Below are positions 2,159 through 3,459 of a stretch of 64,000 bases of DNA, in pieces. This DNA is from Hymenobacter translucens. GTDB taxonomy: Bacteria; Bacteroidota; Bacteroidia; Cytophagales; Hymenobacteraceae. Below the pieces are notes generated by a model that made no database searches, had not been told where the DNA came from, and worked only from the letters and a program-made list of their open reading frames with translations. A program made the translations under genes and the position numbers. Each line of letters starts with the position of its first letter. The stretch's first letter is position 1. The stretch lies in the NCBI RefSeq assembly GCF_020685205.1, contig NZ_JAJERB010000001.1:62001-126000 (forward strand), given 5' to 3'.

Positions 2159-2210
2159 GGCCGCCTTCGGAAGGCGGCCGGGGAGTCAACTGGACTCCCC
2201 CAACGGGGGC
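2159..2210 (-). promoter_or_regulatory. Candidate his-operon attenuator hairpins
   Basis: Two adjacent perfect hairpins lie between the leader peptide and hisG. One spans 2180-2200 (8-bp stem GGGGAGTC/GACTCCCC, 5-nt loop). The other spans 2159-2179 (about 9-bp stem GGCCGCCTT/AAGGCGGCC). On the minus strand the GGGG of the first stem can instead pair with the CCCC run at about 2206-2209, a mutually exclusive fold typical of attenuators. There is no clean T-run after the last stem, so the exact terminator is uncertain. Confidence 0.65.
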
Positions 2211-2230
2211 AATATGATTGTATTATTCCT

Positions 2231-2269
2231 CTAGAGAGAGGAATGGTGCCCGTGCTGATGATGTGCCAT
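2231..2269 (-). CDS. His operon leader peptide (MAHHQHGHHSSL)
   Basis: A 12-codon ORF reads MAHHQHGHHSSL and stops at TAG. Five of the 12 residues are histidine. It lies 186 bp upstream of hisG on the same strand, just before the paired hairpins at 2159-2210. In classical his attenuation, ribosome stalling at His codons under histidine shortage favours the antiterminator fold. No clear Shine-Dalgarno sequence is visible, which is common in Bacteroidota. The composition and position make coincidence unlikely, but translation and attenuation are inferred. Confidence 0.8.
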   Translation of the reverse strand: MAHHQHGHHSSL

Positions 2270-2368
2270 ACCCCGGCCCTGGGCCGCGCCCGCACTGGGG
2301 GCTGGGGCCGAATGGCGCACTGGGGAGCAGAAGGACACGAACAGGGGCATATGGTCGGAGTGACGGGG

Positions 2369-2376
2369 CAAAAGTA
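2369..2376 (-). promoter_or_regulatory. Candidate -7 promoter box for the his leader
   Basis: On the minus strand this reads TACTTTTG, a full match to the Bacteroidota -7 consensus TAnnTTTG. It lies about 100 bp before the leader-peptide start. No TTG -33 element is seen at 17-23 bp spacing, so the call is tentative. Confidence 0.4.
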
Positions 2377-2529: not shown

Positions 2530-3393
2530 ATGTTGCGCTCCTTTTGCTTCCTCACCGCGCTGTTGCTCCTACCCCTCTTTTCGGTCCACGCCCAGCAGCT
2601 GACGCTGCCCCGGGCCAGCCCCCACGCCGTGGTCATGCAGACCGTCGGGCTAACCGATATAACGGTTGACTACCACACGCCCGGCGTGAAAAACCGGCCC
2701 GTGTGGGGCCAGCTCGTTCCCTACAATCAGGTCTGGCGGGCCGGGGCCAATGAAAATACCATTATCAGCTTTAGCGGCGACGTGACCATCAGCAACCACC
2801 GGGTTCCGGCGGGCAAGTATTCGCTCTACGTCATACCGACCTCGGATCAGGACTGGCAGGTTATTCTCAATAAAGTCACCACCCACTGGGGTGCTGAGGG
2901 GTACGATGCCAAAGATGACCTGATGCGGATGGCCGCCGTACCCGAGCCCATTGCCTTCCACGAAAACCTGCTGTACTGGTTTTCCGAAGTGCGGCCCACC
3001 GGTGCCCGCCTCAACCTGGCCTGGGAAAAGCGGATGGTTAGCATCTACATCGGCGTGGACGTGCACACCAAGGTGCTGCAGGAGATGGAAAAAACCCTGG
3101 CCGCCAAGCCCAACGACTGGCAGCTGCTCAGCCAGGCTGCCGACTACCTTGTGCAGAACAACATTCAGCCCGAGCTGGCTTTGCGCTACATCGACCGCTC
3201 CATCAAACTCAAGGACACCTACAGCAATAACTGGATCAAGGCCCGGCTGCTGGCTTCCCGCAACGACTACGGCACGGCCATCGTGTACGCCAAGAAAGCC
3301 ATTAAGATTGGAGATAAGGACGATGCCAACTTCAAGGCCCAGCTCCCCAGCATGCGCGTTTCCCTTACTGACTGGCAGGCCAAGGCGTATTAG
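2530..3393 (+). CDS. DUF2911 family exported protein with TPR-like C-terminus
   Basis: The gene encodes a secreted or periplasmic protein of unknown function, common in Bacteroidota. After a signal peptide (MLRSFCFLTALLLLPLFSVHA) the DUF2911 domain covers roughly the first two thirds, with GVKNRPVWGQLVPYNQVWR and PAGKYSLYVIP typical of the family. The last 90 or so residues are helical and TPR-like. The reading frame stays open back to 2473; starts at 2518 or 2530 place the signal peptide at the N-terminus and I prefer 2530. It stands alone, convergent with the TonB-dependent receptor, and is followed directly by an octanucleotide repeat and a terminator. Confidence 0.9.
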   Translation: MLRSFCFLTALLLLPLFSVHAQQLTLPRASPHAVVMQTVGLTDITVDYHTPGVKNRPVWGQLVPYNQVWRAGANENTIISFSGDVTISNHRVPAGKYSLYVIPTSDQDWQVILNKVTTHWGAEGYDAKDDLMRMAAVPEPIAFHENLLYWFSEVRPTGARLNLAWEKRMVSIYIGVDVHTKVLQEMEKTLAAKPNDWQLLSQAADYLVQNNIQPELALRYIDRSIKLKDTYSNNWIKARLLASRNDYGTAIVYAKKAIKIGDKDDANFKAQLPSMRVSLTDWQAKAY

Positions 3394-3459
3394 GTCTTAG
3401 GGTCTTAGGGTCTTAGGGTCTTAGGGTCTTAGGGTCTTAGGGTCTTAGGGTCTTAGGGT
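3394..3459 (+). repeat. Tandem octanucleotide repeat GTCTTAGG, about 8 copies
   Basis: Just over eight perfect head-to-tail copies of GTCTTAGG begin at the base after the TAG stop codon of the DUF2911 gene. A hairpin (AGGGTGG/CCACCCT, about 3454-3472) and a rho-independent terminator follow. The unit resembles the GGTCTTGG arms found after other stop codons in the window. Confidence 0.97.

Follow-up and report, generated by a model that had tools for sequence, protein, structure and literature searches.

The sequence upstream of hisG in Hymenobacter translucens raises the question of whether the histidine operon of this organism is preceded by a leader that senses histidine through a short peptide, and, if so, by what means such a leader could stop transcription. 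Within the window, by which we mean the whole 64,000-nucleotide stretch of DNA that was analysed, the ORF list places the leader on the minus strand between hisG and a divergent ORF, and the positions of all features are collected in Table 1. The first gene of the operon is taken to be hisG on the basis of a preliminary description of this DNA and of general knowledge of the family; the name and start of the gene that follows, hisD, are likewise our assumption. The short ORF does stand ahead of hisG and hisD, in the order that the preliminary description had given. Judging from sequence comparison, we think it probable that the leader is transcribed as part of the his operon and acts by ribosome-mediated attenuation.

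Table 1. Features of the his leader and neighbouring genes, numbered by position in the window.
Feature	Position	Strand	Basis or remark
Leader stretch	2376-2045	minus	from the -7 box to hisG
Possible degenerate -33 element, TTTC	2395-2398	minus	18 nt 5' of the -7 box; sequence only, weak
-7 box, TACTTTTG	2369-2376	minus	fits the Bacteroidota consensus TAnnTTTG
Leader ORF, 39 codons plus TAG, MPLFVSFCSPVRHSAPAPSAGAAQGRGMAHHQHGHHSSL	2350-2231	minus	His-rich ORF in 99/99 genus loci
12-codon frame	2269-2231	minus	in-frame 3' end of the 39-codon leader ORF; probably internal Met
Control codons His-His-Gln-His-Gly-His-His	2243-2263	minus	sequence; His cluster shared by the examined loci of genus and family
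Candidate pairing P1, 5' arm ACGGGCA in the His-Gly-His codons	2247-2254, partner 2203-2211	minus	weak
Hairpin A, ATTCCTCT/AGAGGAAT, across the stop codon	2225-2244	minus	perfect stem; least variable hairpin
Conserved CATATTG, 8 nt after hairpin A	2210-2216	minus	class I alignment, spacing
Hairpin B, CCCCC-GUU-GGGGG, alternative to C	2197-2209	minus	shares bases with C
Hairpin C, GGGGAGUC/GACUCCCC	2180-2200	minus	perfect, 8 bp
Hairpin D, GGCCGCCUU/AAGGCGGCC	2159-2179	minus	10 complementary bases around 1 base; no U-tract behind
C-rich, G-poor stretch, hairpin D to hisG	2045-2158	minus	composition and predicted folding
hisG (ATP phosphoribosyltransferase), heading the operon	1193-2044	minus	matched in 100/101 genus genomes
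hisD, histidinol dehydrogenase, truncated by the window edge	3-1061	minus	translation

Leader ORFs are so short that gene callers easily overlook them. The preliminary description had pointed to a 12-codon ORF with five His codons, and this frame is present (ATG GCA CAT CAT CAG CAC GGG CAC CAT TCC TCT CTC TAG), but its start had been misplaced, as it forms the 3' end of a longer ORF. The consensus of the -7 element in Bacteroidota is TAnnTTTG, and the box of this kind that had been claimed upstream was recovered, with a gap of 18 nt between its end and the ATG at 2350. In 96 of 99 Hymenobacter loci, TAnnTTTG occurs no more than 60 nt before a leader ATG, compared with 5 of 1881 control windows further upstream; its distance from the ATG has a median of 17 nt (range 6-22), and the box is also found near the leader ATG in 24 of 28 loci from other genera of the family. 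The three Hymenobacter loci without the box (L018, L033 and L035) have TAGTATTG at that position. An upstream TTTG 17-23 nt from the box was found in only 16 of the 96 Hymenobacter loci with a box and in 10 of the 24 loci of other genera. Since the box sits near the leader ATG in 96 of the 99 loci, the leader ORF likely starts at 2350, and the Met codon at 2269 is likely internal. The same consensus motif puts a putative promoter 5' of the ORF, and hence the ORF within the leader of the transcript. When related pairs of leaders were compared, differences at the three codon positions numbered 790, 667 and 1158, and the excess at position 3 is what would be expected of a translated frame, though the skew is only moderate.

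The comparison with close relatives had been fixed in advance as the test of the proposal, and a His-rich short ORF was present upstream of hisG in all 99 Hymenobacter loci, all 28 loci of sister genera and all 80 named loci listed. A match to hisG was found in 100 of 101 Hymenobacter genomes (none in G071), and 99 loci were used, G058 being left out as its match lies at a contig end and its first 72 residues are absent. Under a rule that asked for an ATG ORF of 10-70 amino acids with at least four His in any eight residues, hits were obtained in 97 of the 99 real upstream regions, in none of the 99 reverse strands and in none of 1980 dinucleotide shuffles; exactly three His in eight were reached in two real regions, two reverse strands and 40 shuffles. 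These loci are kin and not independent trials, and the controls address chance. Three further loci of the genus outside the 99 (L106, L110 and L112) also carry a His-rich ORF, and the other repeat loci are duplicates. In G010 and G091 the hisG match is broken into three pieces, one of which contains stops in G091, owing to frameshifts or assembly errors; both genomes carry the His-rich leader ORF (L098 and L099).

The loci of sister genera comprise 20 from three genera, taken from 67 genomes with a hisG match, and eight from a fourth. All 20 satisfy the His rule, which is reached by no reverse strand out of 20 and by a single one of 400 shuffles, and all eight genomes of the fourth genus (L100-L105, L107 and L108) carry a His-rich ORF; in both genomes of a fifth genus, a hisG match was absent. 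Among the best-matching named hisG loci listed, 80 of 80 have at least three His in eight residues (52 Hymenobacter, 19 Pontibacter, 5 Rufibacter, 3 Adhaeribacter and 1 Solirubrum), with H. daecheongensis DSM 21074 and H. norwichensis DSM 15439 in the list, and these overlap the genomes of the 99 and 28 loci. Because the His-rich ORF was kept in all genus and family loci examined while the chance controls stayed near zero, the sensing half of the proposal is supported: a His-sensing leader peptide upstream of hisG is well supported by sequence. A short ORF rich in codons for the cognate amino acid is present before the first gene, and it is presumably translated.

Outside the family the picture is more mixed. 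In the same order, 6 of 23 further loci, the best-scoring of 52 matching genomes among 69, have at least three His in eight residues (L191, L192, L200, L201, L206 and L211, with L200 doubtful), so a His leader is not universal in the order. Inspected by eye, L206 reads WHHHAFHHGSLP, followed by a stop-codon hairpin (GGCTCTC/GAGAGCC) and then by CATATTACCCCCC and a GGTATGC/GCATACC hairpin, an architecture like that of the window's type with quite different hairpin sequence; the leader of L211 ends LHHSS and possibly has a stop-codon hairpin. In a sample across the phylum, 23 of 28 loci reach three His in eight and 18 reach four (L142 being doubtful as a leader), and those below three are L137, L139, L143, L148 and L149.

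We divided the 99 Hymenobacter leaders into three classes according to the end of the peptide. Class I, the type of the window, has 56 members, whose peptides finish with HSS and no more than one further residue; the 24 leaders of class II close with HHHHLWGAGLCAGC or a similar sequence, and in the 19 of class III the His run is followed by a final HL or HR. The eight loci of the fourth genus make up class IV and the 20 loci of the other three genera class V. Two perfect hairpins had been described behind the ORF; both exist, as C and D, but there are three in all, and the third, hairpin A, lies across the stop codon. In an alignment of 36 of the 56 class I leaders, from which near-duplicates were excluded, hairpin A is paired in 97.9% of cells and six of its eight pairs are invariant. 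A stem of at least 6 bp straddling the stop codon was found in 53 of 56 class I leaders, compared with 267 of 1120 cases with a shuffled 3' flank. This test is applied to classes I and V only, because it is unspecific in class II (393 of 480 shuffles have a stem of this length) and in canonical relatives (12 of 21 real leaders, 205 of 420 shuffles) and fails in class III (3 of 19) and class IV (0 of 8). Behind hairpin A, the distance from the first stop-codon base to the start of CATATTG is 17 nt in 43 of the 56 class I leaders, 20 nt in eight and 16 nt in five; in class V, the motif could be located in all but 5 of 20 loci.

Hairpin C is paired in 90.9% of cells with changes on both sides in five of eight pairs, one pair failing in 10 of the 36 leaders, and hairpin D in 90.0% of cells with changes on both sides in three of seven pairs, one pair failing in 16 of 36. 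The alternative pairing that had been suggested is also there as hairpin B, which has bases in common with C. The class I structure as a whole beats 500 of 500 shuffles on five measures, although sequences that are kin may reach this even when unstructured, and the structure under test was derived from one of the aligned leaders. We also considered P1, a pairing of the His-Gly-His codons with CCCGU, which is paired in 92.2% of cells and loses one pair in 9 of 36 leaders. No changes on both sides of P1 were seen among the 36 aligned leaders, and for want of covariation it was set aside as the principal antiterminator of the window type.

Class II leaders have a stem directly after the His codons that is paired in 99.6% of cells, with one-sided variation, and the 3' arm of this stem serves at the same time as 5' arm of another, terminator-like stem. 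The P1/P2 structure of this class is no better than shuffles, and with variation on one side it lacks compensatory support. The terminator-like stem is paired in 92.2% of cells, a value reached by 1 of 500 shuffles, and shows changes on both sides in two of eight pairs, which 226 of 500 shuffles also reach. In class III, a strongly conserved block (ACCGGGCAACCGGGCTGG...GCCAGCCGCTCGCGTCTCC) lies directly after the leader stop, for example in L081, L085 and L093, and possibly contains a CCGG-GCAA-CCGG hairpin; an Rfam match was absent at E up to 0.5 in L073, L080, L081 and L093. By eye, AT-rich repeats such as AATTCTTAATTC or CAACATTCAAC occur just 5' of the hisG start in L003, L014, L021 and L026. 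In the window, a tandem 8-mer (GGTCTTAG, about eight copies) lies directly after an ORF end at 3393-3456.

We then come to the output of the leader. A search for a hairpin with a U-rich tail found no U-tract terminator between the stop codon of the window leader and hisG; by this sequence measure, the leader lacks the intrinsic terminator of ribosome-mediated attenuators. The contrasts drawn here rest on the position of hits and on matched sets of leaders and not on shuffles, and scattered weak hits are left uninterpreted. In class I, 37 of 56 leaders have some hit of a hairpin with a U-tract, at scattered positions, and in seven of them (L002, L003, L011, L014, L015, L018 and L046, best in L011) a hairpin covering D is followed by a short U run. 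Hits were obtained in 14 of 24 class II leaders (seven at the stem itself), 12 of 19 in class III, 6 of 8 in class IV and 7 of 20 in class V. Of the six order-level His leaders, five are without a U-tract terminator and L201 has a weak one at +88. Among the more distant Bacteroidota his leaders, meaning the 23 of 28 fetched that have at least three His in eight residues (L142 doubtful), 21 carry a hairpin and U-tract 19-39 nt past the stop, the two others being L135 and L138.

As a control within the same genomes, we examined the region before trpE. A Trp-rich leader precedes the gene in all 15 genomes, which represent five genera, and all 15 of these leaders have a hairpin and U-tract 20-44 nt after the leader stop. 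In H. translucens itself, the trp leader (L173, G000:C11, about 580.9-581.4 kb) encodes MTVQHTLCAWWWPLRNSGRESLCVR, behind which come AGCCCGGCCGCCCGCCGGGCU and a run of U. It resembles the his leader of the window in being a cognate-codon peptide before the first biosynthetic gene, but it differs in its textbook hairpin and U-tract. Upstream of ilvD no consistent leader was found in 10 genomes; branched-chain-rich ORFs occur there only in L179, L187 and L188, and the one in L188, a Hymenobacter, is a short ORF (MRCFLLPVVVIIPALAGW) that is either a leader or chance.

Based on the preliminary description, the leader should have had the complete layout of an attenuator, including structures that exclude each other. 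This was overstated for the layout, as the U-tract terminator was not found and hairpin B is predicted to be far weaker than hairpin C in all 56 class I leaders (medians of -2.9 and -15.3 kcal/mol, with C in a longer piece; -7.8 and -16.0 kcal/mol in the window). For mutual exclusion the outcome is divided: B and C of the window share bases, and class II congeners have mutually exclusive stems, but predicted folds gave no switch in the window. For these folds, the RNA of 16 leaders was masked up to a ribosome placed either on the first codon for His or on the stop codon. In the window leader (L001) the two states are distinguished by hairpin A alone, with C and D formed in each, and five other class I leaders fold broadly alike in the two states with small shifts (for example in D of L005). 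Two of the 24 class II leaders, L027 and L048, are predicted to form the stem after the His codons when the ribosome is stalled and the terminator-like stem when it is at the stop, which is the classical logic with the expected polarity. We rejected L126 as a clean switch, since in its masked folds the terminator-like stem forms when the ribosome is stalled, which is the opposite polarity. A textbook flavobacterial leader, L152, also keeps its terminator in both masked states, and the lack of a switch in the window is therefore weak evidence.

From the conserved ORF, the His cluster, the promoter box and the hairpins, all of which are established by sequence comparison, we infer where transcription starts, that the ribosome stalls, in which direction the leader responds and that transcription ends prematurely. 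In the proposed mechanism, a ribosome would translate the 39-codon peptide, which has the His cluster at its end. When charged His-tRNA is scarce, the ribosome would stall on this cluster, hairpin A over the stop codon could form, and transcription would proceed into hisG. When histidine is plentiful, the ribosome would reach the stop, hold hairpin A open and leave, and transcription would then end before hisG. This last step would not be the textbook one with a U-tract and may involve a decayed terminator at D, a Rho-dependent route or a pause-based route. Tentatively, with a confidence that falls somewhat short of even, we suggest that the window-type leader has kept a His sensor common to other Bacteroidota, has lost the intrinsic terminator and now stops transcription by its conserved stop-codon hairpin and tandem hairpins in a Rho- or pause-dependent manner, while the trp leader of the same cell is still of the textbook kind.

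Three versions of the termination step can be set against this evidence. It is plausible, if on balance doubtful, that the leader is a textbook attenuator whose terminator has decayed, with D, or C and D together, acting in spite of a poor U-tract and with B or P1 as antiterminator. The seven class I leaders that keep a D-covering hairpin with a short U run would be remnants in this sense, B and C do share bases, and a masked-fold test that misses the switch in L152 would be insensitive here as well. The window is nevertheless without a U-tract hit, its B is predicted to be far weaker than C, and terminator decay would have to be specific to his, because the trp leaders of the same genomes kept their U-tracts in 15 of 15 cases.

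Termination could alternatively be Rho-dependent, with the C-rich, G-poor stretch serving as a Rho loading site once the leader ribosome has left, which we regard as possible but unlikely. Of the 56 class I leaders, 43 have a 78-nt stretch with a C/G ratio of at least 2 between the stop of the leader ORF and hisG (the highest value in the window leader is 2.54), and Rho is encoded in the genome. Such stretches were found elsewhere in 1 of 24 class II, 5 of 19 class III, 2 of 8 class IV and 5 of 20 class V leaders, in 7 of 15 regions before trpE and, for other genes of the window, in 6 of 27. Over the 100 nt that precede the start codon, hisG of the window has a C excess of 0.35, which ranks second among 28 genes (median 0.10). 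The excess may nonetheless be ordinary composition, because the region before trpE, which follows a normal terminator, has a median skew of 0.26. In the last 110 nt of the window leader, 67% of positions are predicted to be unpaired, but predicted accessibility is not changed by the position of the ribosome (class I median 0.52 in all three states), and a Rho site modulated by the ribosome is unsupported on this measure. A stalled ribosome normally favours Rho, which would give the wrong polarity unless something else intervenes.

A pause-based route, in which hairpin A and the CATATTG 8 nt behind it would form a his-type pause site coupling the polymerase to the leader ribosome, with C and D acting on the paused complex, seems to us rather unlikely. 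It would account for the near invariance of hairpin A and of the sequence behind it in the 36 aligned class I leaders and for the spacing of 17 nt between stop codon and CATATTG in 43 of 56. Half of hairpin A is, however, fixed by coding constraint, and the motif was not detected in a quarter of the class V loci searched (5 of 20).

Very improbable is the idea that the ORF is translated but senses no amino acid, the hairpins merely stabilising the mRNA; the conserved structure of C and D and the absence of an evident switch in the window are compatible with it, but it would then be hard to explain why the same genomes carry a cluster of His codons ahead of hisG and one of Trp codons ahead of trpE. 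That the ORF arose by chance, for which we found no supporting point, is virtually excluded by the counts in real regions, shuffles and reverse strands at four His in eight, related as the loci are, and by conservation across genera.

The proposed leader can be compared with several known systems. hisL, the leader of proteobacterial his operons (RF00514, His_leader), is a short ORF with a run of His codons followed by hairpins. The Hymenobacter leader is like it in having a His-rich short ORF upstream of hisG with hairpins behind, but differs in its longer peptide, its interrupted His cluster, the hairpin straddling the stop and, in the window type, the lack of a detected U-tract terminator. 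RF00514 was not matched between 1000 and 3500 of the window at E up to 1, and an Rfam search of 15 relatives at E up to 0.5 gave no RF00514 either, the only matches being sub-threshold ones to Thr_leader in L146 and L105. The only Rfam hit in the window, to a microRNA family at 1068-1200, was judged to be chance (22.8 bits against 180) and overlaps an inverted repeat. That repeat, 36 nt long and imperfect (83%), occupies the hisG-hisD spacer (1071-1197), and different inverted repeats are visible by eye in the corresponding spacer of several further Hymenobacter loci.

A study of Flavobacterium psychrophilum reports, in the part available, strong clues that amino-acid operons are preceded by attenuators based on leader peptides, and it lists the hisG 5' element, which has no Rfam hit, among those also present in other genera of Flavobacteriaceae (PMC9723704). 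That element is like ours in belonging to Bacteroidota and lying upstream of hisG (PMC9723704, in the part available); the contrast in U-tracts is drawn between the window leader and the distant Bacteroidota his leaders examined here (21 of 23), and not with the hisG structure of that paper. His-rich leader-peptide attenuators of Firmicutes his operons have been found by comparative genomics and, in the accessible part of the report, differ in having three to five consecutive His codons and a terminator with an antiterminator (PMC9413887). The portions at hand of other papers mention leader-like sORFs in Bacteroides (PMC7366714), treat leader genes in general (PMC4833913) and deal with Bacteroidota his genes, with attenuation taken up there only for Salmonella enterica and Escherichia coli (PMC8305728). 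In the literature on leader peptides, attenuation and termination in Hymenobacter, Flavobacterium and Bacteroidota, judged by titles and the openings of abstracts and with subscription papers mostly outside, we found no description of this leader.

In conclusion, attenuation by a His leader is already known and the sensing role proposed here is ordinary in principle, whereas the interest of the window type lies in how it would stop transcription. The his leaders of these bacteria amount to a natural experiment in which the same sensor before the same gene is joined to different outputs, namely a U-tract in 21 of 23 distant Bacteroidota, mutually exclusive stems in class II and a terminator that was not found by our search in the window and other class I leaders. 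The textbook trp leader in the same cells serves as an internal control. Together, these leaders raise the question of whether attenuation by an amino-acid leader peptide may be possible without a U-tract terminator, and by what factor it would then be brought about.
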